NCBI RefSeq assembly: GCF_002920915.1
Contig: NZ_PQVF01000003.1
Location: 186,001 to 250,000, forward strand
Reading direction: 5' to 3'
Length of the DNA stretch: 64,000 bases
Origin: Solitalea longa
GTDB taxonomy: Bacteria > Bacteroidota > Bacteroidia > Sphingobacteriales > Sphingobacteriaceae
The notes beneath the pieces were generated by a model. The model ran no database searches. It saw nothing but the letters and a program-made list of their open reading frames with translations, and had not been told where the DNA came from. Of the stretch, positions 25,771 to 58,461 are shown in pieces (positions within the stretch are counted from its first letter, which is position 1; each line of letters starts with the position of its first letter). The translations under genes and the position numbers were made by a program.

Positions 25771-26370
25771 ATGCTATTGTTAATGAACGTCTTAAGCAAT
25801 AATCCTGATGAAACCATTGAATCAAATACTATAAATACTTTATATAAAGAGTATTATAACTATTTGGTTTTTGTTGGTTTAAAGCAGGGTGTTGAACTGG
25901 ATATTGTGAAAGATATTATTAATCAAACCTTTTTAGCTTTCCTAGAAAAGCAGATTAATTTTAAGGAAATAAAAAATGTTAAGTCATTCGTGATAACTTC
26001 TTTTAAAAGAAAGTTAATTGATAATTATCGGGAAGATGTCAAGAAATATAACTATCTAAATCAAAACCTCTTTCAAAACGAAATAGATCCTTCTATTGAG
26101 GACAGAATCTTGCACAATCAATCCTGGGTAGAATTAAAGAATAAGCTGGAAAAGGCGTTTCAACAATTACCACCTCGTTGTCAAACTGCCATCTTTTTAA
26201 AGTATTATGAAGGTTTGAATAATGAACAGATTGTTGAGAGAACCGGTTTAACCACCCGAAGTGTTTACAATAATCTTTTTGAAGGCATTAAAAAGATGAG
26301 AGAAATTATGGAAAATGAAAACATAGACTCCAAATTTCTCCCTGATTTACTTTTATTTATGTTTATTTAA
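25771..26370 (+). CDS. ECF RNA polymerase sigma factor (FecI-like)
   Basis: A 199-residue group 4 sigma factor directing RNA polymerase to the linked SusC operon. Region 2 is KDIINQTFLAFLEKQINFKE to FKRKLIDNYRED. Region 4 is QLPPRCQTAIFLKYYEGL with the helix-turn-helix EQIVERTGLTTRSVYNNL. It ends in a short hydrophobic tail (LLLFMFI), as do the two other FecI-type proteins here. It is followed 54 nt later by its FecR partner and then SusC, SusD and an S9 peptidase. The start could be 25771 or the Met four codons on. Confidence 0.92.
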   Translation: MLLLMNVLSNNPDETIESNTINTLYKEYYNYLVFVGLKQGVELDIVKDIINQTFLAFLEKQINFKEIKNVKSFVITSFKRKLIDNYREDVKKYNYLNQNLFQNEIDPSIEDRILHNQSWVELKNKLEKAFQQLPPRCQTAIFLKYYEGLNNEQIVERTGLTTRSVYNNLFEGIKKMREIMENENIDSKFLPDLLLFMFI

Positions 26371-26424: not shown

Positions 26425-27606
26425 ATGGAGAAGATTTATAGCATTGAAGAACTTATAATAGATGACACATTCATCAATTATTGCTACAATGCAAACGCGC
26501 ACGATGTTGAAAAGTGGAACGCCTATATAAATTCAAATAATCAAGCTGACGTTGAAGAAGCAAAGAGATTTGTGTATGGTTTAGGGAATATGTTAGCAAG
26601 TTCTCAAGTAAATGAGTCCTTCCGAAAATTCAAATCCTTAACAGAAGATATTTCTCATGTAACAAAGGTTAAATCACTTTGGAAATCTATTGGGCGAATT
26701 GCCGCAGCTGCAATCATTATCCTAAGCGTTGGTGGTGGTATTTATTTATATCAGCACAACAAAAAAATTACTGCTGAGGATACTAAAATCTTAGCAGAAG
26801 TAAAACCTGGAAGTAATAAGGCTATTTTAACCTTGGCCAATGGTAAAAGAATTGCCTTAGAAGAAGCAAAAACAGGACTATTATCAAACGAGGGTGGTAC
26901 CAGTGTGAATAAAACTTCAGACGGTTTATTAAAGTATAATGACTCCCAAAATGAAGATTCTCCCCCATCTTTTAACAAACTAGAAATACCAAGAGGAGGC
27001 CAATATCAAGTAGTACTTTCTGATGGGTCTAAAGTATGGCTTAACTCAGCTTCGATTTTAATTTACCCCACTTCTTTTGATACCAAAGAGCGAAAAGTAG
27101 AACTCATAGGTGAGGCCTATTTTGAAATTGCGAAGGATAAAACTAAACCTTTTAGAGTTGTATCTAAAGAACAAACTGTTGAGGTTTTAGGTACTCATTT
27201 TAACATTAGCAATTATCCTGATGATATGAGTGTTCATACTACTTTGCTAGAAGGCTCTGTTCGGGTGGTTGCAAAATCAACAGGTAGTACACAAATACTA
27301 AAGCCGGGGGGACAGATAAATATATCAGGTAATTCTATACAAATTGACCAACATGCAGATATAGAAGAAGTTATTGCCTGGAAAAATGGAGACTTTAACT
27401 TTAAAGGAGAGGATATAAAAAGTATTATGCGACAACTATCGAGATGGTATAATATCGACGTAAGATATGAAGGTAAAGTGACCGATGAAGTTTATTATGC
27501 CAAGATATCCAGAAATAAAAATATCAGTGAGGTGCTTAAACTACTTGAACAAGCAGAAGGTGTTCATTTCAAAATTCAAGAAAGGAGGATAATTGTAATG
27601 CAATAA
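26425..27606 (+). CDS. FecR-family anti-sigma factor / signal transducer
   Basis: A 393-residue single-pass inner-membrane protein. The N-terminal cytoplasmic part (about 1-90) should bind the sigma factor. The membrane segment is AAAAIIILSVGGGIYLY (about 94-112). The periplasmic FecR domain (VVLSDGSKVWLNSASILIYP, GEAYFEIAKDKTKPF, VLGTHFNISNY) is followed by the C-terminal DUF4974-type domain (DFNFKGEDIKSIMRQLSRWY) that contacts the SusC STN domain. The gap to the SusC start is 159 nt and carries the antisense RNA signals described separately. Confidence 0.93.
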   Translation: MEKIYSIEELIIDDTFINYCYNANAHDVEKWNAYINSNNQADVEEAKRFVYGLGNMLASSQVNESFRKFKSLTEDISHVTKVKSLWKSIGRIAAAAIIILSVGGGIYLYQHNKKITAEDTKILAEVKPGSNKAILTLANGKRIALEEAKTGLLSNEGGTSVNKTSDGLLKYNDSQNEDSPPSFNKLEIPRGGQYQVVLSDGSKVWLNSASILIYPTSFDTKERKVELIGEAYFEIAKDKTKPFRVVSKEQTVEVLGTHFNISNYPDDMSVHTTLLEGSVRVVAKSTGSTQILKPGGQINISGNSIQIDQHADIEEVIAWKNGDFNFKGEDIKSIMRQLSRWYNIDVRYEGKVTDEVYYAKISRNKNISEVLKLLEQAEGVHFKIQERRIIVMQ

Positions 27607-27629
27607 AAAATTGACTTACAGTTAATCTG

Positions 27630-27755
27630 AAAACAAAATAGTCATTCCAGTTAGAGCTGGAATGACTAAGCCTAGATTAATTGAATAATTAATTCAAATA
27701 TTCTTAAATCGGATAGTGCCATCATCTGGAAAATGCAAGGGCACTATCACTAAAA
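27630..27755 (-). ncRNA. Predicted cis-antisense small RNA in the FecR-SusC gap (DonS-like)
   Basis: Prediction from signals on the minus strand. A -7 box TACATTTG (27770-27763) overlaps the SusC start codon, giving a start near 27755. About 90 nt on is a perfect terminator stem GTCATTCCAG-6 nt-CTGGAATGAC (27641-27666) followed on the minus strand by TATTTTGTTTTC. The hairpin has no T-run in the SusC direction. Length about 125 nt, fully complementary to the SusC leader. Bacteroides fragilis DonS, an antisense repressor of an ECF-sigma-controlled utilisation locus, is the known precedent. No clear -33 box was found. Confidence 0.6.
27712..27748 (+). promoter_or_regulatory. Leader stem-loop with TGGAAA loop before SusC
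   Basis: Perfect 9-bp inverted repeat GATAGTGCC/GGCACTATC around a 19-nt loop containing CTGGAAAA, ending 17 nt before the SusC start. Equivalent elements are present before the SusCs at 42703 and 47700. It could act in the mRNA leader or as the exposed loop (TTTTCCAG) of the antisense RNA for kissing interactions. Confidence 0.6.
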
Positions 27756-27762
27756 AGCTAAA

Positions 27763-27770
27763 CAAATGTA
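27763..27770 (-). promoter_or_regulatory. TACATTTG (-7 box) overlapping SusC start codon, antisense
   Basis: The plus strand reads CAAATGTA with ATG as the SusC start. The minus strand therefore reads TACATTTG, an exact match to the Bacteroidota TAnnTTTG promoter element. The same octamer occurs at the two other FecR-linked SusC starts. Confidence 0.5.
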
Positions 27771-30700
27771 CAGTTTTTACATAAAAAAATTGGTGCAGCC
27801 ACCGCGCTGTATTTCTAAATTCCTATTGATAATGAGAATAACCACTCTTATTTTAATCATGGCTATTCTTCAGGTAAGTGCAAGTTCCTTTGCACAGAAG
27901 ATTACTATATCTAAAAAGAAGGCACCACTAATTGATGTTTTAAGTCAGATTCGTACTCAAACGGGTTATGATTTTATATTTAATTCTACGGTACTACAGG
28001 ATGCCAAAGAAGTTAGCCTTGATGTTAAAGACGCTGAACTTGATGACGTGTTAAAGAAAGTTTTTGAAGGACAACCTTTGGAATATGAGGTGGTTAACAA
28101 AACAGTAGTGGTAACCAAGGTAACATTTCCCTTGCTTGAACGATTTATGGATCACCTTACCGCTTTTGATATACGTGGTGTTGTGCTTAATGAGGTGGGC
28201 ATGCCGATGGAAGGTGCCAATGTAAAGATCAAAGGAACAACTATGGCCACCAATACAAATGAAAATGGCGAGTTCTTTTTAAGTAATGTGGATAAGAAGG
28301 CTGTTTTGGTAATTTCATTCATAGGATATGAAACCAAAGAAATAACGGTTACTGAAAATTTCTATAGGATTCAATTAGTTCTGAAATCGGATAAACTTGA
28401 AGAAATAACAGTAAATGCTGGTTACTATTCGATAAAGGATAGCGAGCGCACAGGCAGTATTGCCAAAATAACTGCTGCGGAGATAGAGAAGCAGCCAGTG
28501 ACCAATGTACTTGCAACAATGCAAGGACGTTTGCCAGGGGTCAATGTCACACAGACCACTGGAATGCCTGGAGGAGGTTTCGCCATTGAAATCCGAGGAA
28601 AAAATAGTCTTCGATTTGAAGGTAACGACCCCCTGTACATCATCGACGGGGTGCCATATTCATCTCAGGATATTGGCAGTACGTATACCTCTGGCAACAT
28701 ACCGGGTCAAAATAGCCCCTTGAACAGTATCAACCCCAATGATGTAGCCAGCATAGAGGTATTAAAAGATGCTGATGCAACAGCAATATATGGTTCGCGT
28801 GGTGCTAATGGTGTGGTACTGATAACCACCAAAAAAGGTAAAGAAGGCAAAGCCACTTTTAGCGCTAACTACTCCAGGGGATTTGGCGAAGTAGCCCATT
28901 TTATGGATGTGATGAAAACACCTGAATATTTAGCAATGCGCCGAGAAGCTTTTGCCAATGATGGAGTTACCAACTATCCCGCAAATGCCTACGATGTAAA
29001 CGGAACTTGGGATCAAAACCGAAATACAAACTGGCAAAAGGAACTCATAGGAGGAACTGCGAATTACACCAACGTGCAAACCTCTGTATCAGGAGGTAAC
29101 TCACAAACCCAATATCTTTTAAGTGGAAATTACAGCAAGGAAACTACTGTACTTCCGGGTGATTTTGAATATATTAAAGGCAATGGCCATTTCAATCTGA
29201 ATCACGAATCAGAGAATAAGAAATTTAAAATCAATTTTACCGGTGGATACACTATCCAACGCAATAACTTACCCGCACTAGACTATACCCGCACTGCCAT
29301 CACCCTTGTACCAAATGCCCCCGCACTTTATGATGCTGAGGGAAACCTGAACTGGGAAAACAACACCTTTGACAATCCTCTTGCCCAATTAGAAGGAACA
29401 ATTAAAGGACAAACAAAAGATCTGATCACCAATTTATTGCTTTCCTACGACATAGGAGCAGGATTTACAGCAAAGACCAGCTTTGGTTATACCGATCTGC
29501 AGCAAAGTCAAAATAATATACAGCCTTCTACAATCTATAACCCAGCCTATGGGTTGGGGAGCGAGAGGTCAGTTCTATTCACAAATACAGTTAATCGGAA
29601 TTCTTGGATTGCGGAACCACAAATCAATTGGAATCATGTTTTTGGCAAAGGAAAAATAGACGCTTTGGCAGGAGTCACTTTTCAACAACAAAACGGCGAC
29701 CAACTGGTAAATCTGGCGGAAGGTTTTGCAAGTAATAGTTTAATTGAAAACCCAGCCTCTGCTACTAACCACTATGTTCTGAACAGTGATGAATCTGTGT
29801 ACAAATATCAAGCTTTTTTTGGGCGTATAAACTGGAACTGGGACTCAAAATATATAGTAAATATCACAGGACGCAGGGACGGATCAAGCCGATTTGGACC
29901 AGGCAGACAGTATGCTAATTTTGGTGCTATTGGTGCAGCATGGTTATTCTCAAATGAGAAATTCATAAAAGAAAATCTTAGTTTCTTAAGTTTTGGAAAA
30001 ATACGTGGAAGTTACGGAATAACAGGGAACGACCAGATTGGGGATTATCAATATTTGGATACCTATGCCACTTCTGGCAATACTTATCAAGGTATTGGCG
30101 GACTACAACCTACACGCCTTTTTAATCCTGATTTTGGCTGGGAAACCAATAAAAAACTTGAGCTAGCTTTAGAAACCGGATTTTGGAACGACCGGATATT
30201 TACCACCATGGCTTGGTATCGCAACCGCTCATCAAGCCAATTAGTGGGAATACCATTGCCTGGAACAACAGGCTTTTCGGAAATACAGGCTAATTTAGAT
30301 GCGGAGGTCCAAAACAGCGGTTTCGAATTTAGCTTGCGAACATCAAATTTCCGATCAACGAACTTTAGCTGGACGAGTACTTTCAACCTGACTTGGGCAC
30401 AAAATAAGTTGCTTTCCTTTCCTGGACTTGAAGGTTCCACCTATAAATACCAGTATGTAGTTGGCCAACCCATTAATATAACAAAGGTCTATCACTATAC
30501 AGGACTTAATCCAAATACAGGAGTTTATCAATTTGAAGATTTTAATGTTGACGGCAAATTTTCGGCTGTAGATGATAAACAAATTATAAAGAATTTAAGC
30601 CCACAATACTATGGTGGATTTCAAAACCAACTACGCTACAGAAATATTCAACTGGATTTTTTGTTCCAATTTGTAAAACAGGAGGCTACCAATGAAAATT

Positions 30701-31068
30701 ACAGAATGGGAATGCCTGGAACTATGGTTAATCAACCCGAAGGCGTTACCGAACATTGGCAGAGTACAGGCGATTTGGGGCCATATCAATCCTACAGCAA
30801 TAGTAATACGCAGAAAAGAACCGCAAACTCACGCTTTTTTCAAAGTGATGCCGCTATTGGTGATGCTTCCTACATACGCTTAAAAAATGTTTCCATTTCT
30901 TATGATGTACCAAAAAGCTGGACCCAAAATATCTTATGCAAACTTAGCCTGCAAGGGCAAAATCTGCTAACGATAACCCCCTATAAAGGAATGGATCCTG
31001 AATTAATCGCCGAGGGCTATTTGCCACCTCTCCGAGTAGTTACCGCAAGTTTACAAATCACCTTTTAA
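27766..31068 (+). CDS. SusC/RagA-family TonB-linked outer membrane receptor
   Basis: A 1100-residue TonB-dependent channel. The start at the MY codons is supported by the CAAATGTA context conserved in two other SusCs. An N-terminal extension of about 22 residues precedes the hydrophobic core of the signal peptide, which ends SSFAQ. Then STN domain (about 45-115), regulatory-like beta-sandwich (about 130-210), plug with LYIIDGVPYSSQ and AIYGSRGANG, and barrel to the C-terminus. The STN domain pairs it with the FecR/FecI upstream. Its sequence is close to the SusC at 42703 (YYSIKDSERTGSIAKI against YYSVKESERTGSISKI), so these two cassettes are duplicates. Confidence 0.95.
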   Translation: MYSFYIKKLVQPPRCISKFLLIMRITTLILIMAILQVSASSFAQKITISKKKAPLIDVLSQIRTQTGYDFIFNSTVLQDAKEVSLDVKDAELDDVLKKVFEGQPLEYEVVNKTVVVTKVTFPLLERFMDHLTAFDIRGVVLNEVGMPMEGANVKIKGTTMATNTNENGEFFLSNVDKKAVLVISFIGYETKEITVTENFYRIQLVLKSDKLEEITVNAGYYSIKDSERTGSIAKITAAEIEKQPVTNVLATMQGRLPGVNVTQTTGMPGGGFAIEIRGKNSLRFEGNDPLYIIDGVPYSSQDIGSTYTSGNIPGQNSPLNSINPNDVASIEVLKDADATAIYGSRGANGVVLITTKKGKEGKATFSANYSRGFGEVAHFMDVMKTPEYLAMRREAFANDGVTNYPANAYDVNGTWDQNRNTNWQKELIGGTANYTNVQTSVSGGNSQTQYLLSGNYSKETTVLPGDFEYIKGNGHFNLNHESENKKFKINFTGGYTIQRNNLPALDYTRTAITLVPNAPALYDAEGNLNWENNTFDNPLAQLEGTIKGQTKDLITNLLLSYDIGAGFTAKTSFGYTDLQQSQNNIQPSTIYNPAYGLGSERSVLFTNTVNRNSWIAEPQINWNHVFGKGKIDALAGVTFQQQNGDQLVNLAEGFASNSLIENPASATNHYVLNSDESVYKYQAFFGRINWNWDSKYIVNITGRRDGSSRFGPGRQYANFGAIGAAWLFSNEKFIKENLSFLSFGKIRGSYGITGNDQIGDYQYLDTYATSGNTYQGIGGLQPTRLFNPDFGWETNKKLELALETGFWNDRIFTTMAWYRNRSSSQLVGIPLPGTTGFSEIQANLDAEVQNSGFEFSLRTSNFRSTNFSWTSTFNLTWAQNKLLSFPGLEGSTYKYQYVVGQPINITKVYHYTGLNPNTGVYQFEDFNVDGKFSAVDDKQIIKNLSPQYYGGFQNQLRYRNIQLDFLFQFVKQEATNENYRMGMPGTMVNQPEGVTEHWQSTGDLGPYQSYSNSNTQKRTANSRFFQSDAAIGDASYIRLKNVSISYDVPKSWTQNILCKLSLQGQNLLTITPYKGMDPELIAEGYLPPLRVVTASLQITF

Positions 31069-31084: not shown

Positions 31085-32467
31085 ATGAAAGATAATAAAT
31101 TAGTATTGACAATATATTTCATAGCGCTATTCTTAATGGTGGGATGTGACAGTTTTACTAATGTAGACTTACCCTCTTCGCAATTGACAGCTAAAGATGT
31201 GTTTCAGGACAAAACCACCGCTAATGCAGCCATGGTTGACATTTATGCAAATATCCGAGATCATGGGTTACTTACAGGCTATCCTATGGGGATTTCATGT
31301 GAACTTGGACTTTATAGTGATGAACTGATGTATTACGGAATTTCTGGCACAGGTCAGTCCAACTTCTACACGAATTCATTATTGGCTTCTGATCAGGAAA
31401 TAGCTGAATTATGGAATAGTAGCTATAATCAAATTTACTCTGCCAATGCCATCATTGAAGGAGTTGCATCATCTGATGCGCTGAAAATCTCCGATAAAAA
31501 TCAACTAACGGGAGAGGCTCTGTTTGTTAGAGCCATAATTCATTTTTATCTCGTTAATACTTTTGGGGACATTCCATGTTTGCTAACTACAGATTACCAG
31601 CAAAACAAAGTGGCGCATCGCCTGCCAATTAATGAGGTATATGCACAAATCAAGGCAGATTTACTCAAGGCAAGTGAATTACTGCCTGAAGGATACATAG
31701 GCGCAGATCGGGTACGTCCGAACAAATGGGCTGCCCAGGCACTATTGGCCAGAGTCTGCCTTTATAGACAGGAATGGAATGAAGCATCGAATGCAGCTTC
31801 GGCTGTGCTCAATCAAACAGGATTATATGTTTGGCCTTCAGATATTGGCACTGTATTCGGCAAAGATAGCCCGTCTACTATCTGGCAATTGATGCCTCCT
31901 ATTGCAGGAGCCAATACCTACGAGGCAGGAACATTTATTTTTGTTGAAGGACCACCTCCTTCAGTGGCAATTAGTGACCAGCTCATCGATGCGTTTAGTG
32001 ATAATGATCTTCGTAAATCAAATTGGATTAAAGCAGTGACAAACGGTACTGATACATGGTACCATGCGAACAAATATAAAGAAGCTTCCAATACAGGGAC
32101 ATCTGTGGAATATTCCATTGTCCTGAGAATGGCTGAACAACATCTCATAAGAGCGGAAGCCCGTGCGCACCAGGACGATCTTATTGGTGCAAAAGAAGAT
32201 TTAAATAAAATTCGCAATCTGGCAGGGCTAGGGAATTCAAATGCAGTTACCACAGCAGACATTATTGCGGAAGTGCTTCAACAGCGCCGTCTGGAATTCT
32301 TTACGGAATATGGAAACCGTTTTTTTGACCTGAAAAGAACTGGCGAACTTGATGCGGTGTTAGCACCAATCAAACCACAATGGAAGTCAACTGATCGACT
32401 ACTGCCACTGCCTGAATCTGAACTTTTACTTAACCCAAATCTCGAACCTCAAAATGCAGGTTATTAA
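31085..32467 (+). CDS. SusD/RagB-family lipoprotein
   Basis: A 460-residue partner of the preceding SusC (16-nt gap). Lipobox MVGC followed by DSFTNVDLPSSQLTAKDVF, almost identical in pattern to the SusD at 39284 (CDSFVKVDLPASQLSAKTVF). TPR-like core with LTGEALFVRAIIHFYLVNTF and C-terminal LEFFTEYGNRFFDLKRTG. Its 3' end overlaps the start of the S9 peptidase by 14 nt, showing tight coupling of substrate capture and peptidase production. Confidence 0.95.
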   Translation: MKDNKLVLTIYFIALFLMVGCDSFTNVDLPSSQLTAKDVFQDKTTANAAMVDIYANIRDHGLLTGYPMGISCELGLYSDELMYYGISGTGQSNFYTNSLLASDQEIAELWNSSYNQIYSANAIIEGVASSDALKISDKNQLTGEALFVRAIIHFYLVNTFGDIPCLLTTDYQQNKVAHRLPINEVYAQIKADLLKASELLPEGYIGADRVRPNKWAAQALLARVCLYRQEWNEASNAASAVLNQTGLYVWPSDIGTVFGKDSPSTIWQLMPPIAGANTYEAGTFIFVEGPPPSVAISDQLIDAFSDNDLRKSNWIKAVTNGTDTWYHANKYKEASNTGTSVEYSIVLRMAEQHLIRAEARAHQDDLIGAKEDLNKIRNLAGLGNSNAVTTADIIAEVLQQRRLEFFTEYGNRFFDLKRTGELDAVLAPIKPQWKSTDRLLPLPESELLLNPNLEPQNAGY

Positions 32468-35108
32468 AATAAATTACTTGTCAGACAAGCTCCTGGTTTA
32501 TAAAAACTTTTTCATTGGCTTTTCTAGTTTCATTTTTTTGTTACTTGCTTTTCCTTCAATGGGACAGAATAAACCCAATAAGCAGCTTACTAAAGACGAC
32601 TATGCTCTTTGGAGTAATTTTACGGCAAGAAAACTGTCTAATGATGGCAATTGGGCCAGTTATTTACGGTGGGACGAATCCAAAAAGGATACCTTATTCG
32701 TGAAAAGCACAAAAAATAGCACTCTCTATAGTTTTCCAAATGCCAAAAACGGTGTTTTTAATGGCGAAACCTACTTTGGTTGTATTGCCAGAGATACATT
32801 ACTAGTACAAAACCTGACAACCGGCGTAATTACAAAAACAGCTGATGTGACTGATTTTGCTTTTTCAAAGAATGAAAAATTCCTCTTAATCCTGAAAAAA
32901 CAGGCTAATCAAAAACATAATCTTGTTGTTCAAGATATACAAGGAAATACAGTAGAAGAAATTCACAATGTAAATGCCTGGCGTTTGGAACCCAGTCGCA
33001 AAGGAGTCTTATACGCTATAGATTCAACTGGTAAAAATGAAATCGGTTTTTTAGAATTAGGATTAAAAACAAAAAAAAGCACCATTACCTCAGGTAGTAA
33101 TGGTGCGTTTCAAAATCTGAACTGGAAAGGCAATACTATTGTCTTTATACAAAATGTATCTGATAACCCTAAGCTTTTCAGCTATAGTACTGTCACCAAA
33201 AAGCTGAATTATTTTGATGCCAAGGCACAACCAAACTTTCCCATAGATATGAAGATCTCAGACGTGACCTCCAATACGCTAACAGTATCGGATGATGGGG
33301 ATCGCATTTTTTTCTGGCTCAAAGAAAACTCCGAGAGGCTCCGCCCCATTGATCCAAGCAGCGTACAAGTATGGAATGCTGCCGATAAAGAAGTCTTTGA
33401 CCGTAAGAAGACTTATGGACAATATAGTCTGAGTGATAAGATGGCGGTATGGTCTATGAAGAGCAACCGCTTTATCCAGATTACGGACAGGAAAATTCCA
33501 AAAGGGTTTCTTAGCGGAGATTACAAACATGCTTTTATTTATGATCCAGTTGTCTATGAGCCCCAAAACAGTTTCGATGGACCGTATGATCTGTATATCG
33601 TTGATTTGACAACCGGAAAAAGAAAACTGGTACTCGAAAAATATTCAGGCGACTACTCAACAGTTCCATCCTCCGACGGGAAAGTTCTGGCCTATGTCAA
33701 GGAAGGAAATTGGTGGATCTATGACGTCGAAAAAGACACCCATACCAATATCACCAAAACGATACCGGTATCTTTTTTTCGGCAGGATCAAGATATGCCA
33801 ATACAGCCTGCTCCTTATGGTGTGGCGGGATGGACGGAGAAAGACAAAAGTATAATCCTGTACGATAAATATGATCTGTGGCAAATCTCACCTGACGGCA
33901 ACATTAAAAAGCGAATTACAAAAGGCAGGGAAATCCAAAGAACATATCGAATTAAGGATATGACTCCAGAACCACTCTATCACAGAGATCAAATTGACAC
34001 TAAAAAACTACCATTAGAGTTAAACAACGAAATTATTTTGAGTGTTGAAGACAGGTATTCCGGGGCATCAGGATTCTGTATATGGAGCCGTAAAAATGGA
34101 GTAGTTCCTATGGTTTGGGAGCAGAAGAAAGTGAATCAGATTATCAAGGCAACTAACAATGATACTTACATGTACGTGGAACAAAGTTATGAAGTATCGC
34201 CAAGGCTTATGTTTTATGCCACCTCACCAAAGGAAATTGTACAGTCCAATGCCCAACAGGAACACTTTTATTGGGGTACGGCTGAGCCGATACGGTATAC
34301 TGTAAATGGTAAGGAATTGTCTGGCATTCTTTACTATCCAGCTGAATATCAAAGGGGCAGAAAATACCCCATGATAGTGCATGTCTATCAGCATCAATAC
34401 CAGTATTTAAATGATTACCAGAACCCAAGTTCTTATTCAGGGGATGGTTTTAACATCACCAATTATGTCACCCAGGGGTATTTCGTTTTACTTCCGGATA
34501 TGGAATTTGAACTTGCCAATGTAGGGCAGTCGGGCACTTCATGTGTACTGTCTTCGGTAGATGCTGTCATTTCAAAAGGAGATGTTGATCCTAAAAAAGT
34601 TGGACTTATTGGGCATTCCTTTGGAGGTTATGAAACAGATTTAATCATTACCCAGACCGATAGGTTTGCGACTGCGGTTTCAGGTTCTGCCTGGACCGAT
34701 CTCATTAGTAGTTATCTTTATGTGGGTGTCACTTTTAAGATTCCTGATTTTTATCGTGCAGAGCACGATCAGTTACGCATTGGCAAATCTCTCTTTGAGG
34801 ATACGGAAAGTTATTTGAAAAACTCTCCTGTTTTGTTGGCGGCAAATGTAAAGACTCCTCTATTGGGATGGACTGGCGAAGAAGACCGCCACATCCATTA
34901 TCTTCAAAGTATGGAATTTTATCTGGCCTTAAGACGGCTTAATAAAACACATACCTTGTTGGTTTATCCTGAAGAAGGACACACTTTGTGGAAACGGGAA
35001 AATCAAAAAGACCTGACGCAACGCATCAACGAGTGGTTTGATTATTACTTGAAAGGTGAAAAGCCTGCGGAATGGATAACTGTAGATAACAAACAGGTAG
35101 GTCAATAA
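32454..35108 (+). CDS. S9-family serine peptidase of the SusCD cassette (plus strand)
   Basis: An 884-residue exported S9 peptidase. A long N-region precedes the hydrophobic core FIGFSSFIFLLLAF and a cleavage site near SMGQ. Propeller-like first half, then hydrolase domain with Ser722 in GHSFGGYET, Asp in GEEDRHIH and His in EEGHTLWK. The start overlaps the SusD stop by 14 nt; no closer ATG gives a signal peptide. It is related to the minus-strand enzyme at 35265 and more distantly to the four tandem enzymes at 6343-17351, whose extra C-terminal tail it lacks. Likely degrades peptides handled by the SusCD pair. Confidence 0.9.
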   Translation: MQVIKINYLSDKLLVYKNFFIGFSSFIFLLLAFPSMGQNKPNKQLTKDDYALWSNFTARKLSNDGNWASYLRWDESKKDTLFVKSTKNSTLYSFPNAKNGVFNGETYFGCIARDTLLVQNLTTGVITKTADVTDFAFSKNEKFLLILKKQANQKHNLVVQDIQGNTVEEIHNVNAWRLEPSRKGVLYAIDSTGKNEIGFLELGLKTKKSTITSGSNGAFQNLNWKGNTIVFIQNVSDNPKLFSYSTVTKKLNYFDAKAQPNFPIDMKISDVTSNTLTVSDDGDRIFFWLKENSERLRPIDPSSVQVWNAADKEVFDRKKTYGQYSLSDKMAVWSMKSNRFIQITDRKIPKGFLSGDYKHAFIYDPVVYEPQNSFDGPYDLYIVDLTTGKRKLVLEKYSGDYSTVPSSDGKVLAYVKEGNWWIYDVEKDTHTNITKTIPVSFFRQDQDMPIQPAPYGVAGWTEKDKSIILYDKYDLWQISPDGNIKKRITKGREIQRTYRIKDMTPEPLYHRDQIDTKKLPLELNNEIILSVEDRYSGASGFCIWSRKNGVVPMVWEQKKVNQIIKATNNDTYMYVEQSYEVSPRLMFYATSPKEIVQSNAQQEHFYWGTAEPIRYTVNGKELSGILYYPAEYQRGRKYPMIVHVYQHQYQYLNDYQNPSSYSGDGFNITNYVTQGYFVLLPDMEFELANVGQSGTSCVLSSVDAVISKGDVDPKKVGLIGHSFGGYETDLIITQTDRFATAVSGSAWTDLISSYLYVGVTFKIPDFYRAEHDQLRIGKSLFEDTESYLKNSPVLLAANVKTPLLGWTGEEDRHIHYLQSMEFYLALRRLNKTHTLLVYPEEGHTLWKRENQKDLTQRINEWFDYYLKGEKPAEWITVDNKQVGQ

Positions 35109-35264: not shown

Positions 35265-37904
35265 CTAATCCAGCCTAGCTTCCCCTTTCAATAATTGGTC
35301 AAACCATGCCATCATTCGTCTGCTGAGATCCTTTTGATTCTCTGGATTTTCCAATGAATGGTCCTCATCAGGATAGACCAGCATTTCATTTTTGACCCCT
35401 AATTTTCGGAGTGCCAGATAATAAGTTATGCTTTGATTCCAGGGGATGATCCTGTCATCTTTGCCTGCCCATAGTAACAGGGGTGTTATTATGTTTTCTG
35501 CGTGCATAATAGGAGAATTCCTTAAGTATGCCTCTTTGTCCTTGTACAGCGACTTTCCAATACGAAACTGCTGGTTTTCAAATCGCCACATATCGGTCTG
35601 AAATTGACCATTCCTCCCGATATTAAAGTAATAGGAAATGATGTCGCTAACTCCGGCTCCTGAAACAGCAGCAGCAAAAATTGGAGTTTGTGAAATAATA
35701 AAATTGGTTTCATACCCCCCGAAAGAATGCCCATATAAACCTATTTTATGTTTATCCACCAAACCTTTGTCGACAACCGTTTTAACTCCGGCTGTTACAC
35801 AATCAACGGCCGAACTTCCTGGGTTTCCCAACTGGTATACAATATCGGGCATTAACACAAAATAACCATTTAGCGTATAATTCGTCACATTAAAGCCCTC
35901 CCTGTTCAAGAAACTAGGATTGACATACTGATGAAGTTCATCAGACATCACATCATAGATATGCACCACCATTGGGTATTTCTTTGTGGGATTATAATCA
36001 GCGGGATAAAACAGCGCCGCTTTTAATGTTTGACCTTTACTGTTGCTGTAATACAGCAATTCTGATTTTCCAAAGGAATACTCATTCTGTTGCTTGTTGG
36101 ATTGAAACAAAATTTTGGAAACAGCCTCGTTTTTCTTTCTGAATTCCAATCGTGGCGACTGATTGAAGGTTTGATTCTGAAAAATATAACTGCTGCTTTT
36201 ACTCTTGCGGATTTCATCTATTTTACTGGCTTCATATACCAAAGGTTTCTCTCCCGATTGGGCATTGTAAATAAAATACCCTGTTGACCAGTTTTCGGTA
36301 TTTCTTGCTTCGAGCAACAGATCTTTGGACAGATCGAAAATGGTGGGTTTCCTTCCGTCGTAGTTACTCTGTGATCGCCAGTCATATTCAATGGGAGTTA
36401 TCCTGTAAACCATGTTTTTCTCCCGTCCTCTGGTTAGTCGCTCGCAAGAAGAACCATCAGTAGCCACCTGCCAGATATCATTGGCATCATACAATAAAAC
36501 GTTCTTTCCGTCGGAGCTCCAGCCCGGATTGCCATAGGCTCCAAATTGATGGGGAGCATCGGTTAAACTGTTATTATCCCATTTAGTTGTAACCTTTTTG
36601 GTCAGGTTCGTGTGCGTTTTTTCCACAGGATCATATATCCACCAATTACTTTCCCTAAAATACAGTATTTTGTTGCTAAAAGGATCAAAGCCCATTTGAT
36701 TTGGGTCAACGGATTGTTTTTTCAGCATCAGGTTTTGGGAACCGTTTTTTATATTCCTAAGATAAAAATCCGCTTCCTCGTAATATTTCGCCTGCAAGCC
36801 ATAGGAAAATTTATTATAGGTAATGGCATAATCCTGTTGCCCAGTCAACATCATTTCAGGTAAATCGTTGTCGCTTATTTGGGAATAGAAATCCGTCTCA
36901 GGATACCAAACGGCCAGTTTAGGAATATCCCCCCATGTTTCCTGACGTTGCCTGTCTGAATACAACCATTTATCATTGCCGTTCCAAACTTCGACTGCTT
37001 TTGGATCGTTTCGTAAATCTGCATCCTTGTTTTTAGCTACCATAAAAAAAATTTTTGTGCCATCAAAGGAGACGTGGGGTTGGTTCCAATTCTTGAAACC
37101 GATGCACATGTTTTTGGTTGAGCCTACTTTAGTGGAATAATCAAATGAAAACAGTTTCTTATCACTAATTCTAAGATAATTAATCGTAGTTATTTTTGAG
37201 ACAGAGTCAATTTCATTCAAAAAAGCAACTGACTTATCATTGTGCTGCCAGACAAAATTGGCAAACTTGCCGGCATTTTCTTTCGATATCGTTTCGCGGG
37301 AATACTGTTTAAAATAGATTATTCCAACGTCACTATGTTCCCGAAGCCTGCTGGCAAAAATTAAAGCATCTTTGCTTGCATTTAAGGCATATTCTGTGAC
37401 TCCAAGGATACTGTCAATGGCTATTCCTTTTTGATTATATATCTTCAACAAGCTTTTCTCACTATACCCTTTATTGAAAGTGATAATGTACCGACCGTTA
37501 CTTGCCAATTCATACCGTCTGACATTGTCATATACTTTTATATTGCCCGTCTGTAACTGCATTACTTTCAATTGGGACTCCTCTGGTATCAAGAATGCAA
37601 ATAGTTGCTCTCCTCCAAAACTACCCTCAGTCCCTTTTGGGATGGCATAGCTTTTATTTTTAGCGATGTTTTGTACAAATAAAGTATCGTTGTGGTTTTC
37701 ATACCGCATCGCATAACTCGCCCATTTCCCATCTTCAGAAATGGCTTTTACCTCCAGTGTTCCCCACCTGCCGTAATCGTCTTCGTTTAATGGCTTCTTT
37801 TGTTGTGCCTGTCCCAGTATGGGACAGGCTAACAACACTAAAAGAAATAGATCCAACACCAAACTCGAGATTACGAAGTCAATTTTTCGTTTGAATATAA
37901 TCAT
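35265..37904 (-). CDS. S9-family serine peptidase of the SusCD cassette (minus strand)
   Basis: An 879-residue exported S9 peptidase, last gene of the minus-strand cassette and 15 nt after SusD. The signal peptide includes LLLVLLACPILGQA; the LLAC could be a lipobox, otherwise cleavage follows GQA. Hydrolase domain: Ser727 in GHSFGGYET, Asp in GKDDRIIP, His in DEDHSLEN. N-terminal motif NEDDYGRWGTLEVKAISEDG parallels KDDYALWSNFTARKLSNDG of the plus-strand enzyme. The two genes converge on a shared terminator. Confidence 0.9.
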   Translation of the reverse strand: MIIFKRKIDFVISSLVLDLFLLVLLACPILGQAQQKKPLNEDDYGRWGTLEVKAISEDGKWASYAMRYENHNDTLFVQNIAKNKSYAIPKGTEGSFGGEQLFAFLIPEESQLKVMQLQTGNIKVYDNVRRYELASNGRYIITFNKGYSEKSLLKIYNQKGIAIDSILGVTEYALNASKDALIFASRLREHSDVGIIYFKQYSRETISKENAGKFANFVWQHNDKSVAFLNEIDSVSKITTINYLRISDKKLFSFDYSTKVGSTKNMCIGFKNWNQPHVSFDGTKIFFMVAKNKDADLRNDPKAVEVWNGNDKWLYSDRQRQETWGDIPKLAVWYPETDFYSQISDNDLPEMMLTGQQDYAITYNKFSYGLQAKYYEEADFYLRNIKNGSQNLMLKKQSVDPNQMGFDPFSNKILYFRESNWWIYDPVEKTHTNLTKKVTTKWDNNSLTDAPHQFGAYGNPGWSSDGKNVLLYDANDIWQVATDGSSCERLTRGREKNMVYRITPIEYDWRSQSNYDGRKPTIFDLSKDLLLEARNTENWSTGYFIYNAQSGEKPLVYEASKIDEIRKSKSSSYIFQNQTFNQSPRLEFRKKNEAVSKILFQSNKQQNEYSFGKSELLYYSNSKGQTLKAALFYPADYNPTKKYPMVVHIYDVMSDELHQYVNPSFLNREGFNVTNYTLNGYFVLMPDIVYQLGNPGSSAVDCVTAGVKTVVDKGLVDKHKIGLYGHSFGGYETNFIISQTPIFAAAVSGAGVSDIISYYFNIGRNGQFQTDMWRFENQQFRIGKSLYKDKEAYLRNSPIMHAENIITPLLLWAGKDDRIIPWNQSITYYLALRKLGVKNEMLVYPDEDHSLENPENQKDLSRRMMAWFDQLLKGEARLD

Positions 37905-39352: not shown

Positions 39353-42300
39353 TTAAAACGTAAGCTGTAAGCCAGCGGTAATTGTTTTTAGAGGGGGCAG
39401 GTATGCGGTATATTTAAATTCTGGATCTCCCCCTTTGTATGGGGTAAATGTTAACACATTCTGTCCCAATAATGACAGCTTACAGTGAACCCCTTTGATG
39501 GCATGCAGCTGCAGGTCATAGCTTACCGCAATATTTTTTAACCGAATGTAGGACGCATCCACAATAGGGGCATTGCTGTCCAAATAATTGTAATAGGCAT
39601 TTACAGCTGCCCCATTTTCGCCCGATGTATTCATCTGAAAAGGAACCTGGTCTCCTTCATGCTGCCATGCATTAGTCATGTCCGAACTCTGATTGAAGAA
39701 ACTACCACCGGGAACGTTTGGAGTATATATGTAATTCTTTTGTTTTACAAACTGGAAAAGAAAATTTAATTGCCAGTTTTTGTATTGAAACTGATTTTCC
39801 AAACCTCCAAAGTACTGCGGTGTAAGATCCATAATGACCTTTTTGTCTCCCAGTGAGGTAATCATACCGTCTTTATTGAAGTCTTCCACCTCATATAGTC
39901 CCGTTTGTGGATTGACCCCTTTTAACTGATATGTCTTTACAATGCTTGTCGATTCCCCGATAACATAACGGTTGAAATAGGTCGAGCCTTCGAGTCCCGG
40001 AAAAGCCAGTAGTTTGTTTTTGGGAGCCGATATATTAAAGTTGGTTGTCCATTTAAAACTGTTGCGGTCAAAATTTAGAGTACGCAGTGTAAATTCCAGC
40101 CCCATATTTTGAACGGTGGCATTTAAATTAGCGTTAATAGAACTAAATCCTGTTGTCCCTGGCAAAGGAATCCCTACCAGTTGATTGGAAGACCGATTCC
40201 GATACCAAGCGGCTGTAAAAAATATGCGATCCCTGAAGAACCCCATTTCTATTGCTGTCTCCAGTTTTCGATTGGTTTCCCAACTAAAATCCGGATTGTA
40301 CAGTCGAGTGGGATCTAAACCTATGGCACCATTGTAGTTTAGACCAGAGGAAATATAGGTATCCAAATACTGGTAATCTCCTATTTGGTCACTGCCGGAA
40401 CTGCCGTAGCTGGCCCGAAGCTTTCCAAAACTCAGCACTGCATTATCTTTTAGGAAACTTTCTTTCGAGAATAGCCAGGCGGCGCCTACAGCCCCAAATG
40501 TTGCAAACTGCTTACCTGGGCCAAATCGGCTAGAACCATCCCTTCTTCCCGTTACGTTCACAATGTATTTTTGATCCCAATTGTAATTGAGCCTTCCAAA
40601 AAAGGCTTGGTATTTATATAGGGTTTCATCACTTACATAAATGGATTTTTGCGTGGCCGAGGCTATGTCTGTAATCTGGCTGTTGCTGGCAAAACCAAAC
40701 CCAAACTGGTACAGCCGTGAACTAGTTTGCTGTTGCGCGGTACCACCCACCAGAACATCAATTGTACTGATTCCGAAATTATGGCTCCAGCGAAGCTGCG
40801 GTTCCACAATCCAGGATTTTCTCTGGGTATTGTTGGAAAACATCGCCGAGTAGCTGCTTCCAAGATGATAGGCAGGATCATACATAGTCGATGGCAAGAG
40901 GCGCTGTTCTGCATTCTTTATATCTGTTAGCCCTAAATTGGCTTTGAGTTCCCAATCTGGAGCCATCAGATAACTCAGCACAGTATTGGCAATAAGATCA
41001 TTAGTTTTTGCAGTACTGATGCCACGAAGCGCTGCCAATGGATTTTGGAAGGTACTGTTTTCAAAATTAAGATTACCATTGGTGTCATACAGGGCAGGGG
41101 CATTTGGAGCCAGATTTCGAGCCGTGCGGCTTATATCGGTTTCTGGTTGTAAATTGTCTTGGGCTGTATAGCCTGTTGAAAAAGTGAGTTTGAATTTATT
41201 ATCCTCACTCCTGTGGTTCATGCTAAAGTGTACAGCTGCTTTATCATACTCAAAATCACCGGGGAGTACCGTTGTTTCAGTGTGGTAGGTACCATTGATC
41301 AGATATTGGGTTAAATCGGAACCGCCTGATACCGACGCCTGCATATTGGCAATTACAGCAGTTCCACCCAAAAGTTCCTTTTGCCAATCGGTATAACGAT
41401 TTTGATCCCAAGTTCCATTAATATCATATGCCCAATCGGGATAGTTGGTAACACCGTCATTGGCAAAACCCTGTCTTCTCATTTCCAAATACTGCTGGGT
41501 ATCCATCAGATCGATCATTTTGGTGACTTTCCCAATTCCTGAAGATGCGGAAGCAGTTACGCTCGTTTTTCCTGCCTTACCTTTTTTGGTGGTAATCAGC
41601 ACTACCCCATTGGCACCGCGCGAACCGTAGATAGCGGTTGCATCGGCATCTTTGAGGACTTCTATGCTTTCAATATCATTGGGATTGATGCTGTTCAACG
41701 GACTCGTAGGTGTTGGTATTCCACTTGTCGTATTGTAGTATCCAATGACTTCCGAAGAATAAGGCACACCATCGATAATGTAGAGCGGTTCATTGCCGTC
41801 TTCCCGTAGGCTGTTGAGACCCCGTATTTTTATCTGAAAGCCGCTTCCGGGTGTTCCTGAATCCTGGATGATATCGACTCCTGCCATACGCCCTTGCATT
41901 GTGGCAAGAACATTTGAAACAGGTTGTTTCTCAATATCCTTAGCGTTGATTTTAGAAATACTCCCAGTACGTTCGCTTTCTTTAACCGAATAATACCCTG
42001 CATTGACAGTTACTTCATTCAATTTGCCAACCACCAATTCCATTTTGATCGTGCCTAACTGCGTAACGGCCTTGCGTTCGCGGGTTATATAACCAATAAA
42101 GGAAATTTGTATAATGGCCCCTTCATCAATATTTGCCAGGGTAAAATCTCCATTGATAGAGGTTGTTGTTGATATTGAGCTTCCTTTTACCTTTACTACA
42201 GCCCCTTGAAGGCCAAGTCCGTTTTCATCTACCACTTTACCTGAAACACTTATCTGCAGTAGATTGGAGATGCTATTCTCTACGGAAGAGGATTGCTCCT

Positions 42301-42703
42301 TTTCTTTAATAACAATAGTTGTCTCATCAATGGTGAAATCAAGATTTTGTCCGGCAAGACATCTTTCTATCACTTCTTTTAATGCGGTATTCGAAAACTG
42401 CACATTAATACGTTTTGAATCCTTCAGTGTTTCCTTCTGATAAAGAACATCATAACCAGTTTGTTTCTTGATTTCTTTGAATACTTGCCTTAATGAAACA
42501 TTGTTTTGTTTTAGGGTAATCCGCTGGGCAAACGTCATAGCGCTTACCTGCATCATTGCCGCAATTAATAAAACAGTAGTGAGTTTAGCTCTCATAATCC
42601 ATTTTCTTCTGTCTGCGTCACTGATTCGGTGTACTACCAAATTCAAGTTCAACAGCATACGTTGGGCAAGCCAACATAAAAATTGTGTGTAAATTTTATA
42701 CAT
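39353..42703 (-). CDS. SusC/RagA-family TonB-linked outer membrane receptor
   Basis: A 1116-residue TonB-dependent channel. It starts with MYKIYTQFLCWLAQ; about 36 residues precede a second Met (MRAKLTTVLLIAAMMQ) from which a normal signal peptide ending MTFAQ runs. STN domain (about 61-130), regulatory-like beta-sandwich (about 150-225), plug with LYIIDGVPYSSE and AIYGSRGANG, then barrel ending AGLQLTF. Closest relative in the window is the SusC at 27766. The gap to FecR (238 nt) carries a predicted antisense RNA on the plus strand. Confidence 0.95.
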   Translation of the reverse strand: MYKIYTQFLCWLAQRMLLNLNLVVHRISDADRRKWIMRAKLTTVLLIAAMMQVSAMTFAQRITLKQNNVSLRQVFKEIKKQTGYDVLYQKETLKDSKRINVQFSNTALKEVIERCLAGQNLDFTIDETTIVIKEKEQSSSVENSISNLLQISVSGKVVDENGLGLQGAVVKVKGSSISTTTSINGDFTLANIDEGAIIQISFIGYITRERKAVTQLGTIKMELVVGKLNEVTVNAGYYSVKESERTGSISKINAKDIEKQPVSNVLATMQGRMAGVDIIQDSGTPGSGFQIKIRGLNSLREDGNEPLYIIDGVPYSSEVIGYYNTTSGIPTPTSPLNSINPNDIESIEVLKDADATAIYGSRGANGVVLITTKKGKAGKTSVTASASSGIGKVTKMIDLMDTQQYLEMRRQGFANDGVTNYPDWAYDINGTWDQNRYTDWQKELLGGTAVIANMQASVSGGSDLTQYLINGTYHTETTVLPGDFEYDKAAVHFSMNHRSEDNKFKLTFSTGYTAQDNLQPETDISRTARNLAPNAPALYDTNGNLNFENSTFQNPLAALRGISTAKTNDLIANTVLSYLMAPDWELKANLGLTDIKNAEQRLLPSTMYDPAYHLGSSYSAMFSNNTQRKSWIVEPQLRWSHNFGISTIDVLVGGTAQQQTSSRLYQFGFGFASNSQITDIASATQKSIYVSDETLYKYQAFFGRLNYNWDQKYIVNVTGRRDGSSRFGPGKQFATFGAVGAAWLFSKESFLKDNAVLSFGKLRASYGSSGSDQIGDYQYLDTYISSGLNYNGAIGLDPTRLYNPDFSWETNRKLETAIEMGFFRDRIFFTAAWYRNRSSNQLVGIPLPGTTGFSSINANLNATVQNMGLEFTLRTLNFDRNSFKWTTNFNISAPKNKLLAFPGLEGSTYFNRYVIGESTSIVKTYQLKGVNPQTGLYEVEDFNKDGMITSLGDKKVIMDLTPQYFGGLENQFQYKNWQLNFLFQFVKQKNYIYTPNVPGGSFFNQSSDMTNAWQHEGDQVPFQMNTSGENGAAVNAYYNYLDSNAPIVDASYIRLKNIAVSYDLQLHAIKGVHCKLSLLGQNVLTFTPYKGGDPEFKYTAYLPPLKTITAGLQLTF

Positions 42704-42706
42704 TTG
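42699..42706 (+). promoter_or_regulatory. TACATTTG (-7 box) overlapping SusC start codon, antisense
   Basis: The plus strand reads TACATTTG across the reverse-complemented SusC start codon (42701-42703), an exact TAnnTTTG match placed as in the two other FecR-linked SusCs. Confidence 0.5.
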
Positions 42707-42712
42707 GATAAT

Positions 42713-42848
42713 TCTGGTTTAAGTGTGTGCTTGTTATTTTTCAGATTGGCAGCATCACACAGTTACTCGAAAATTTTGTTAAAATCTTTTTTAGTTAAAT
42801 CAGCAAAGGATCTGGGACGTTGGTAGCGTTCCGGATCTTTCTCTTATT
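42713..42848 (+). ncRNA. Predicted cis-antisense small RNA in the FecR-SusC gap (DonS-like)
   Basis: Plus-strand prediction, antisense to the minus-strand SusC leader. It would start about 7 nt after TACATTTG, pass through the stem-loop at 42723-42760, and end at a 14-bp stem (42806-42819 with 42827-42840) followed by TTTCTCTTATT. Three of the 14 pairs are G-U on the plus strand and would be A-C mismatches in minus-strand RNA, so the hairpin is adapted to the antisense transcript. Length about 130-136 nt, matching the two other predictions. Confidence 0.6.
42723..42760 (-). promoter_or_regulatory. Leader stem-loop with TGAAAA loop before SusC
   Basis: In the SusC direction GTGTGATGCT pairs with AGCACACAC (one bulged A) around a 19-nt loop containing CTGAAAAA. 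It ends 19 nt before the SusC start and corresponds to the elements at 27712 and 47645. Confidence 0.5.
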
Positions 42849-47562: not shown

Positions 47563-47690
47563 AATATAAAAAAGACAACCAGAACTTGGAAAGATCTGGT
47601 TGTAGTCTGGCAACAGACATAATAAAATTATAAACTGTGTAAACCGCAGTTGCCTGTTCCGTGGAAAGTAGAGGCATACTGCACCAAACA
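47563..47690 (-). ncRNA. Predicted cis-antisense small RNA in the FecR-SusC gap (DonS-like)
   Basis: Minus-strand prediction. The -7 box TACATTTG (47704-47697) covers the SusC start. The terminator is a 9-bp stem ACAACCAGA/TCTGGTTGT (47575-47603) followed on the minus strand by CTTTTTTATATT. In the SusC direction no T-run follows the stem. Predicted length about 125 nt. Confidence 0.6.
47645..47681 (+). promoter_or_regulatory. Leader stem-loop with TGGAAA loop before SusC
   Basis: GCAGTTGCCT pairs with AGGCATACTGC (one bulged base) around a 16-nt loop containing CGTGGAAAG, ending 18 nt before the SusC start. Size, position and loop motif match 27712-27748 although the stem sequence differs. 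Confidence 0.55.
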
Positions 47691-47696
47691 AGACAA

Positions 47697-47704
47697 CAAA
47701 TGTA
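47697..47704 (-). promoter_or_regulatory. TACATTTG (-7 box) overlapping SusC start codon, antisense
   Basis: The plus strand reads CAAATGTA with ATG at 47700, so the minus strand carries an exact TAnnTTTG match, the third such case in the window. Confidence 0.5.
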
Positions 47705-57152: not shown

Positions 57153-58461
57153 ACAGAGTTTAGAAGATCTGAATCTGTTGGGGAAATATAAATCCAATTC
57201 GATTTATAGCCTGTTCAATAAAACCAAAACATCAGGGGGAGAGAAGCTATTAGAGGCTTTATTCCAAACACCACTGTCAGATGCTGATCAAATCAATGAC
57301 CGTAGTTCTGTTTTTAACTATTTCCATCAGCAGCACTTGGTTTTTCCTTTTCAACGTGAAAATGTAGAGGCAGCTGAAAGTTATTTGAATGAAGGTGAGG
57401 AAGGTAATTTTATTTTATCAGTAATAGGTATCCTGCAGAAAAAGGTAGGAAATATGGTGCTCCAATCAGCAGAATATGGTGTTTTGCTTAAAGGTTTACA
57501 GTCTATGGTCGACTTGCTGCAAGATGCTGCAACTTTCTTCGGACAACTTAAGCAGAGTGGGGACCATCCTTTTCAAGATAAACTGGACAAAACGAAGTTG
57601 ATTTTTAAAGATCAGCGTATTATCAACTTATTAACGGAAAAAAGAATTGAAGAACTTTCTGTTTTAAAGATTGCACGATACAATTACCTGTTACGTAGCG
57701 CTTTGTGTAAAGAGATGAGACTGCTTTTTGAAGTGCTGTACGAGCTGGATATGTACATTGCAGTGTCTGACGTTGCACGATCCCGAGGGATGGGCTATGC
57801 AAAGGCGTTACCTGCTACTAAATGTCTGTTAAAAGCAAGTGGATTAAAGCACCCTGTACTTGAAAAAGCTATTGCCAATTCAATTTCACTGAATCAGCAA
57901 GAGAATGTGCTCTTTTTAACAGGAGCAAATATGGCGGGTAAATCAACCTGGATGAAAACGATAGGTGCCAGTATATACCTTGCACATTTAGGGATGCCAC
58001 TTGCTGCAGATAGTTTTGAGTTTTCGGTGATGGAGGGTATTTACTCTTCTATTAATGTGCCCGATAACCTGAATATGGGGTATAGCCACTTCTATGCCGA
58101 GGTTTTGAGGGTAAAGGAAGTAGCGCAAAAGGTGAGCGAGCGCAAGAATTTATTGGTGCTTTTTGATGAGTTATTTAAAGGTACCAATGTAAAGGATGCT
58201 TATGATGCAACTTTGGCTGTTTCAGAAGCTTTTGCAGCTTATACGAATTGCTTGTTTGTGATTTCTACGCATATTATTGAAGTGGGGGAAGCATTGAAGG
58301 AACGTTGTGAAAATATCCAATTTAAGTATCAACCAACGGTGATGGATGGATTGGTTCCAAGGTATACTTATCAATTGAAAGATGGAATCACTAATGACAG
58401 GCAGGGAATGATGATTATAGAGAATGAGCGGATTTTAGAGATTATTGATGGATCGAAATGA
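57133..58461 (+). CDS. MutS-like ATPase lacking mismatch-recognition domains, copy 2
   Basis: A 442-residue paralog of the preceding gene, sharing its whole architecture (N-terminus FLTDKQSLEDLNLLGKYKSN against FTTDQQTLNDLNIFGKPGSE). Walker A TGANMAGKST (Lys270), YSSINVPDNLNMGYSHFYAE, Walker B LLVLFDELFKGTNVKDAYDA. The 20-nt overlap suggests translational coupling and possibly a heterodimer in which each subunit supplies one nucleotide site. The last gene of the operon; a family 1 repeat follows about 80 nt later. Confidence 0.85.
   Translation: MSFLTDKQSLEDLNLLGKYKSNSIYSLFNKTKTSGGEKLLEALFQTPLSDADQINDRSSVFNYFHQQHLVFPFQRENVEAAESYLNEGEEGNFILSVIGILQKKVGNMVLQSAEYGVLLKGLQSMVDLLQDAATFFGQLKQSGDHPFQDKLDKTKLIFKDQRIINLLTEKRIEELSVLKIARYNYLLRSALCKEMRLLFEVLYELDMYIAVSDVARSRGMGYAKALPATKCLLKASGLKHPVLEKAIANSISLNQQENVLFLTGANMAGKSTWMKTIGASIYLAHLGMPLAADSFEFSVMEGIYSSINVPDNLNMGYSHFYAEVLRVKEVAQKVSERKNLLVLFDELFKGTNVKDAYDATLAVSEAFAAYTNCLFVISTHIIEVGEALKERCENIQFKYQPTVMDGLVPRYTYQLKDGITNDRQGMMIIENERILEIIDGSK

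Follow-up and report, generated by a model that had tools for sequence, protein, structure and literature searches.

A predicted DonS-like antisense RNA in the FecR-SusC gap of a SusCD-peptidase operon of Solitalea longa

Antisense RNAs of susC loci and the Solitalea longa locus

DonS-type loci are under the control of an ECF sigma/anti-sigma pair. The original DonS paper, by Cao in 2016, reportedly dealt with PUL-associated cis-antisense RNAs of Bacteroides. According to PMC7366714, DonS represents a family of 78-128 nt antisense RNAs that are divergent from susC homologues and act negatively on them, and citing papers report that DonS of Bacteroides fragilis represses its cognate locus. Antisense RNAs are cited at 15 such loci in B. 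fragilis (PMC9723704), and 32 PUL-associated asRNAs are cited for B. thetaiotaomicron (PMC10994844); PMC11697453 describes the mechanism of PUL asRNAs as unknown. The latter paper, on polysaccharide utilisation in B. thetaiotaomicron, also presents the FopS sRNAs, a paralogous family with 4 of its 14 members antisense. Judged by that description (PMC11697453), FopS is unlike the RNA predicted here in being mostly intergenic (9/14). PMC9723704 offers 287 antisense regions in Flavobacterium as a starting point, and a capsule antisense RNA is known from Porphyromonas (PMC8757827). Our literature search, which was thin on subscription papers, found no susC antisense RNAs of this kind reported outside Bacteroides.

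The window analysed here is a stretch of 64,000 nucleotides from Solitalea longa, in which a gap of 159 bp separates the stop codon of a fecR gene from the ATG of a susC gene (Table 1). As in DonS-type loci, ECF sigma and FecR genes lie directly 5' of the gap, and we assume that this ECF sigma factor drives this susC. DonS-type RNAs are antisense to and divergent from a susC homologue; in the window, box, body and terminator of the predicted RNA are all on the minus strand between the FecR stop and the SusC ATG. The length of ~127 nt, predicted from box and terminator, compares with the DonS-type range quoted above from PMC7366714. The host is outside the Bacteroidales, whereas DonS hosts are Bacteroides. 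The cargo also differs, because the described DonS-type members belong to mucosal-glycan utilisation loci, whereas this operon carries an S9 peptidase, and no glycosidase was found among the five locus proteins scanned with Pfam; for this reason we call the RNA DonS-like without placing it in the DonS family as described. The earlier note on this DNA had rightly counted a peptidase among the flanking genes. The SusCD operon behind gap 2 likewise closes with an S9-family peptidase gene (35265-37904), so that of the window's three antisense modules at least two precede peptidase operons. Behind the third SusCD locus, an ABC transporter pair is followed by two successive genes with MutS domains III and V (55797-58461). 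The genome has 11 FecR genes, and the best relatives of this FecR among named genomes come from Daejeonella, Pedobacter, Mucilaginibacter and Chitinophaga.

Searches of Rfam 15 gave no match in the window at gathering score, and a search of 11 loci to E 5 gave five matches, all below gathering. The only sub-threshold matches to any Bacteroidota RNA in the 11 loci were a pair to Flavo-1 (RF01705), a structured Bacteroidota RNA, at 771-850 and 1097-1176 of a single locus (L055; 27.7 and 25.8 bits, gathering 42); they are outside its FecR-SusC gap, the module of that locus being at 2562-2665. A match of MicX on the L055 module (E 0.37, 24 bits against a gathering score of 75) was taken as chance.

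Table 1. Features of the ECF-FecR-SusCD-peptidase locus and of the other two module copies (window coordinates)
Feature	Position	Strand	Evidence or remark
ECF sigma factor gene	25771..26370	+	Pfam Sigma70_r4_2 4.9e-11, Sigma70_ECF 1e-4
FecR-type anti-sigma gene	26425..27606	+	Pfam FecR 4.3e-18, FecR_C 7.4e-21
T-tract TTTTGTTTT of antisense terminator	27630..27638	-	sequence; tail score -4.37
Predicted antisense RNA, ~127 nt	27631..27758	-	box and terminator; model R1 match 27633-27770 (sequence in R1 training set)
Antisense terminator hairpin, perfect 12 bp	27639..27668	-	-17.2 kcal/mol; minus-strand shuffles
Second hairpin, perfect 9-bp stem, 19-base loop	27712..27748	-	loop with conserved CATTTTCCAGATG block
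Putative antisense -7 promoter box TACATTTG across SusC start codon	27763..27770	-	8 columns each identical in 22-23 of 23 related gaps
SusC/RagA TonB-dependent receptor gene with STN domain	27766..31068	+	TIGR04056 5.3e-216; STN, Plug
SusD/RagB lipoprotein gene	31085..32467	+	Pfam SusD_RagB 2e-21
S9-family peptidase gene	32454..35108	+	Pfam Peptidase_S9 7.4e-26; start overlaps SusD end
Second module copy, gap 2, antisense to SusC 39353-42703	42699..42846	+	box 42699-42706, hairpin 42809-42837, T-rich tract after
Third module copy, gap 3, antisense to SusC with likely ATG 47700	47567..47704	-	box 47697-47704, hairpin 47576-47602, T-rich tract below

Promoter box and terminator in the window and in related gaps

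A -33 TTG element is part of the Bacteroidota housekeeping (sigma-A) promoter. The -7 box of this promoter has the consensus TAnnTTTG and is located at -12 to -5 according to the Flavobacterium transcriptome (PMC9723704). The box TACATTTG fits this -7 consensus and spans the SusC ATG (27766-27768). With 124 nt from box to hairpin end, it bears out the earlier proposal of a TAnnTTTG box at the SusC start about 125 nt from the terminator end. By the -12 to -5 placement, the predicted RNA would start at G27758, 5 nt past the box and ~8 nt upstream of the SusC ATG. Alignment of 83 such promoters revealed no conserved -33 TTG, with hardly any information at that distance, and only an A/T-rich stretch adjoins the box. 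The sense ATG is within the box in 37 of the 83 and overlaps its end in 48 (some do both). In 93 stretches that begin at the terminator and extend 200 nt into susC, we counted 87 antisense and 6 sense copies of TAnnTTTG, which is compatible with a susC promoter of another type.

The terminator reads TAGTCATTCCAG-CTCTAA-CTGGAATGACTA on the minus strand, followed by TTTTGTTTT, so that the T-run is on the strand for which the earlier note had claimed it, with termination directed away from SusC; no plus-strand terminator was found in the FecR-SusC gap. The same note had described a perfect 10-bp stem at 27641-27666 as the only one in the gap: the stem stands, and is longer (12 bp), but it has company in the perfect 9-bp stem of the second hairpin. 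As a minus-strand control we made 1000 dinucleotide shuffles of a 270-bp region: a hairpin reaching -10 kcal/mol with a comparable T-tail arose in 5, and one reaching -15 kcal/mol with a tail close to the observed one in 1.

We surveyed 135 gaps between a FecR gene and the next gene: 30 from four congeneric genomes, 25 from the family (26 new loci less L061, whose orientation was unclear), and 80 from named genomes, the latter being the best 80 of 594 relatives and coming mainly from Pedobacter, Mucilaginibacter, Chitinophaga and other Chitinophagaceae, with single loci from Dyadobacter, Flavobacterium, Sphingobacterium and Hymenobacter. An antisense terminator was present in 99 of the 135 gaps and undetected in 36, and a sense terminator was present in 3, where the gaps are related paralogues and orthologues and any p-values therefore do not come from independent events. 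Shuffled gaps gave 8 antisense and no sense terminators in 540. Among 73 other codirectional gaps of 80-400 bp, taken from the window and the 80 named-genome loci, 3 had antisense and 8 had sense terminators, and none combined box and terminator. In the FecR-SusC set the two occurred together, 40-140 nt apart, in 89 of the 135 gaps. Bodies between box and terminator measure 44 to 138 nt. The box was found over the first ATG, which served as the start in this count, in 95/135 FecR-SusC genes versus 2/189 control ORF starts. Chance is excluded by these contrasts, that of antisense with sense terminators and that of boxes at FecR-preceded and control starts. These headline terminator counts come from a finder that also catches hairpins in which the T-run is paired with an A-rich flank (as in L017), whereas the set of 83 RNAs and promoters, the 93 stretches, the range of body lengths, the closing-stem set, the references for the G-U alignment and model R1 come from a simpler finder that is blind to such hairpins.

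The earlier note would have its proposal fall if the hairpin were not conserved in related genomes, and it is conserved. This was examined in 30 gaps drawn from 300 genomes of the order by similarity to SusC residues 1-130: an antisense terminator precedes 29 of these most similar SusC genes and a sense terminator none, and box and terminator occur together in 27, a figure to which the selection contributes because similarity at the N-terminus favours the Met-Tyr start and hence part of the box. The lone miss (L268) has the hairpin with a poor T-tract.

Structure, strand and distribution of the module

A 23-gap alignment was made from 21 of these 30 loci together with L068 and L104; nine of the 30 were left out, seven at first and then L281 and L294. 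RNAalifold on this alignment gave the terminator only, with 8 of 10 consensus pairs changed on both sides, and the other helices were therefore written in by hand and counted. The terminator helices are 97% and 92% paired. Of the 7 aligned pairs of the second hairpin, 6 have changed on both sides. A further helix, here called the closing stem, joins the bases after the RNA start to those before the terminator. Among 83 antisense RNAs, its arms pair better with their own partners (-9.8 kcal/mol) than with re-dealt ones (-7.0 +/- 0.26 kcal/mol; 0 of 2000 re-dealings). The window's own closing stem is weak (arms -6.8, rank 31 of 83), the GG of its 5' arm being missing. Taken together, closing stem, second hairpin and terminator have changes on both sides in 16 of 23 pairs, a number that 0 of 500 shuffles reached, and sliding the pairing partners abolishes this signal.

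The stretch 27630-27758 folds at -40.1 kcal/mol (z -5.95) as antisense RNA and at -38.6 kcal/mol (z -6.53) on the sense strand; folding alone is thus silent on strand, because both fold about equally well. A G-U pair in the antisense reading is an A-C mismatch in the sense reading, and we used this asymmetry on hairpins from a search that made no distinction between the two. Ten of the 135 gaps had no usable hairpin; in the other 125, the stems contain 144 G-U versus 29 A-C; counted per locus, G-U is in excess in 88, A-C in 6, and 31 are equal. T is also more frequent behind the hairpin on the antisense side, with 6.6 in 12 nt versus 3.3 on the other. Across the 23 aligned gaps, 28 G-U versus 0 A-C were counted in the terminator and 14 versus 1 in the closing stem, indicating that both of these evolve as antisense RNA. 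With 7 of each, the second hairpin shows no strand preference, so part of the conservation of the gap may serve the sense strand, for example as an ECF promoter; the hairpin may double as a sense ECF promoter or leader element. It is our guess that CATTTTCCAGATG and an AT-rich block at ~27694-27709, both conserved outside the antisense helices, form this sense ECF promoter. The susC leader also has a short plus-strand frame inside the second hairpin (27733-27753, ATG CAA GGG CAC TAT CAC TAA), and no matching leader ATG was seen by eye in gap 3.

Within the genome of S. longa, 30 of the 37 SusC loci above the family cut-off were examined. The eight preceded by FecR have an antisense terminator in 7 cases and box plus terminator in 5, the exception (L171) having a gap of 22 bp, and the other 22 have an antisense terminator in 3 cases, box plus terminator in 2 and the box over the first ATG in 1. 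A full antisense module, at ~1210-1326, is also found in L175 (C31:114035-116995), which has no adjoining FecR gene. For the third SusC of the window, the mechanical ORF start is a GTG at 47661, upstream of the likely ATG at 47700 that sits under the antisense box.

Two covariance models were built from alignments that are hand-picked subsets. Model R1, from the 23 gaps, has four matches below 1e-3 in the whole genome: this gap, gap 2 (42699-42844, E 9.9e-5), gap 3 (47570-47704, E 7.0e-5) and C23:147941-148078, a further FecR-SusC gap. The last three are outside its training set, and the next match has E 0.03. Across 41 genomes of the family, R1 has 10 matches at E <= 0.001, all antisense and between a FecR-like and a SusC-like gene; they are in only 6 genomes because R1 fits the long subtype only. 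Model R2 describes the terminator and was built from 34 hairpins of other families, without Bacteroidales-type genomes. Among the 30 own SusC loci it has 5 matches below 0.05, in three FecR-preceded gaps (two in its training set), in L175 and inside the SusC gene of L168.

Bacteroidales-type genomes are here two families found via Bacteroidales-1 RNA and taken as Bacteroidales, with up to 42 FecR genes in the draw. From 60 loci we obtained 50 usable FecR gaps (10 were left out). An antisense terminator was found in 16 of these, a sense terminator in 3 and the combination of box and terminator in 13. R2 matches 16 times at E < 0.05 in the 60 loci, 13 times antisense to the FecR gene and 3 times sense. 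Eleven of the 13 begin 17-70 nt past the stop codon of the long ORF before them, where the gap should lie, and two (L207, L222) could not be placed. The draw from the phylum, in which loci of the same family were included, gave box plus terminator in 1 of 28 FecR gaps (29 loci, L180 left out), and in the 29 loci R2 was below 0.05 only in L185 (E 1e-8, with 0.0015 on its other strand). The module is therefore spread within the class and is not phylum-wide in our sample; it was seen in Sphingobacteriaceae, Chitinophagaceae, single Dyadobacter and Flavobacterium loci, and Bacteroidales-type genomes. Some FecR-SusC gaps of Bacteroidales-type genomes, the group to which DonS belongs, have the same promoter-leader-terminator layout, and we liken them to DonS by its description.

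The complement of the RNA loop (17 nt, up to 3 mismatches) occurs at 27 places in the genome versus 9 for the reversed control. The best two are this locus (27724-27740, 0 mismatches) and the paralogous FecR-SusC gap at C23:148030-148046 (1 mismatch), thus making cross-talk between paralogous antisense RNAs and leaders possible; the remaining places are an unexplained excess.

Proposed mechanism, alternatives and meaning

At the level of sequence, the position and strand of the module, its box, its covarying terminator, the closing stem across the family and the association with FecR-SusC gaps are established. The G-U strand bias, the compensatory changes, the start-codon box and the hairpin model matching Bacteroidales-type gaps argue for the DonS-like antisense RNA gene that the earlier note had predicted. 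From these features we infer the synthesis of the RNA, and by analogy with DonS its repressive action, and we give a probability of about three in four to a DonS-like cis-antisense repressor RNA on this ECF/FecR-controlled SusCD and S9 peptidase operon. A housekeeping-type promoter with TACATTTG, overlapping the SusC start codon, would initiate a minus-strand RNA that runs back over the susC leader and ends ~127 nt on at the strong intrinsic terminator, before fecR. Housekeeping polymerase would make this RNA by default, while the ECF sigma factor is idle. The RNA would pair with the susC leader, or its RNA polymerase would collide with sense transcription, or both would contribute to repression, and antisense transcription would pass over the expected site of the ECF promoter. 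Leaky expression of SusC, SusD and the peptidase would thereby be kept low, and the brake would be overridden once the ECF sigma factor drives strong sense transcription through the antisense promoter.

The main competitor is that the terminator merely insulates, by stopping stray antisense transcription that comes from the susC start codon before it enters fecR, with a short RNA devoid of any effect of its own. Its anatomy would be identical, repression being attributed to the RNA by analogy, and the variable length of the body between box and terminator is in keeping with it. Insulation, however, would need neither a conserved box nor a stem closing the two ends of the RNA body, and DonS, in the same place, is reported by citing papers to repress, so that we consider insulation alone unlikely. 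It is less likely still that the hairpins belong to the susC mRNA leader as a 5' stabiliser, processing site or attenuator. The nearly equal fold of the sense strand and the lack of strand bias in the second hairpin are what such an element would give, whereas the G-U excess over A-C in the survey stems and in the aligned terminator, the T-tract on the antisense side and the rarity of sense terminators all point to the other strand.

The predicted RNA might instead encode a micropeptide, from a minus-strand ATG at 27725-27723 with 17 codons by eye. Column counts (columns 53-55) allow an ATG there in at most 15 of the 23 related gaps; it is absent from the remaining gaps, and the aligned frames differ by eye in length and sequence, which makes coding highly improbable. 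Least credible of all, with hardly any weight left to it, is that the module is chance or a by-product of the start-codon context (CAAATGTA) and A-rich leaders. The box is indeed the reverse complement of CAAATGTA, part of which Met-Tyr start codons supply, and the shuffled gaps illustrate that chance terminators in A-rich leaders fall more often on the antisense strand; but the box is nearly confined to FecR-preceded starts when set against control ORFs and the SusC genes of this genome without FecR, and real gaps far exceed shuffled ones in terminators.

Antisense RNAs of susC are themselves of a kind already known from Bacteroides. As far as we have seen, what is new is that the antisense promoter sits on a start codon, that terminator and closing stem covary, that the module reaches widely and that its target is a peptidase operon. 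For the DonS-like repressor RNA, we hold it an even call whether a broader reading applies, in which a cis-antisense brake RNA is old and common in FecR-controlled SusC operons of much of the class Bacteroidia, for peptides as well as glycans. In that reading the promoter uses the start codon of the receptor in its -7 box; within ~150 bp, the antisense promoter would be interlocked with the susC start, and probably with the ECF promoter too, as a two-way switch, and the receptor N-terminus would have been shaped by the antisense promoter. No Rfam match was found for the family in the window or the 11 loci, and the covariance models and the box-terminator rule allow its annotation and tests of one mechanism in many organisms. 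Many Bacteroidota genomes have ten to forty FecR genes, and leaky expression of large outer-membrane receptors is presumably costly. If most such SusC operons carry an antisense RNA of this common layout, RNA control would be a general layer of nutrient uptake in the class, beyond the glycan loci of Bacteroides.
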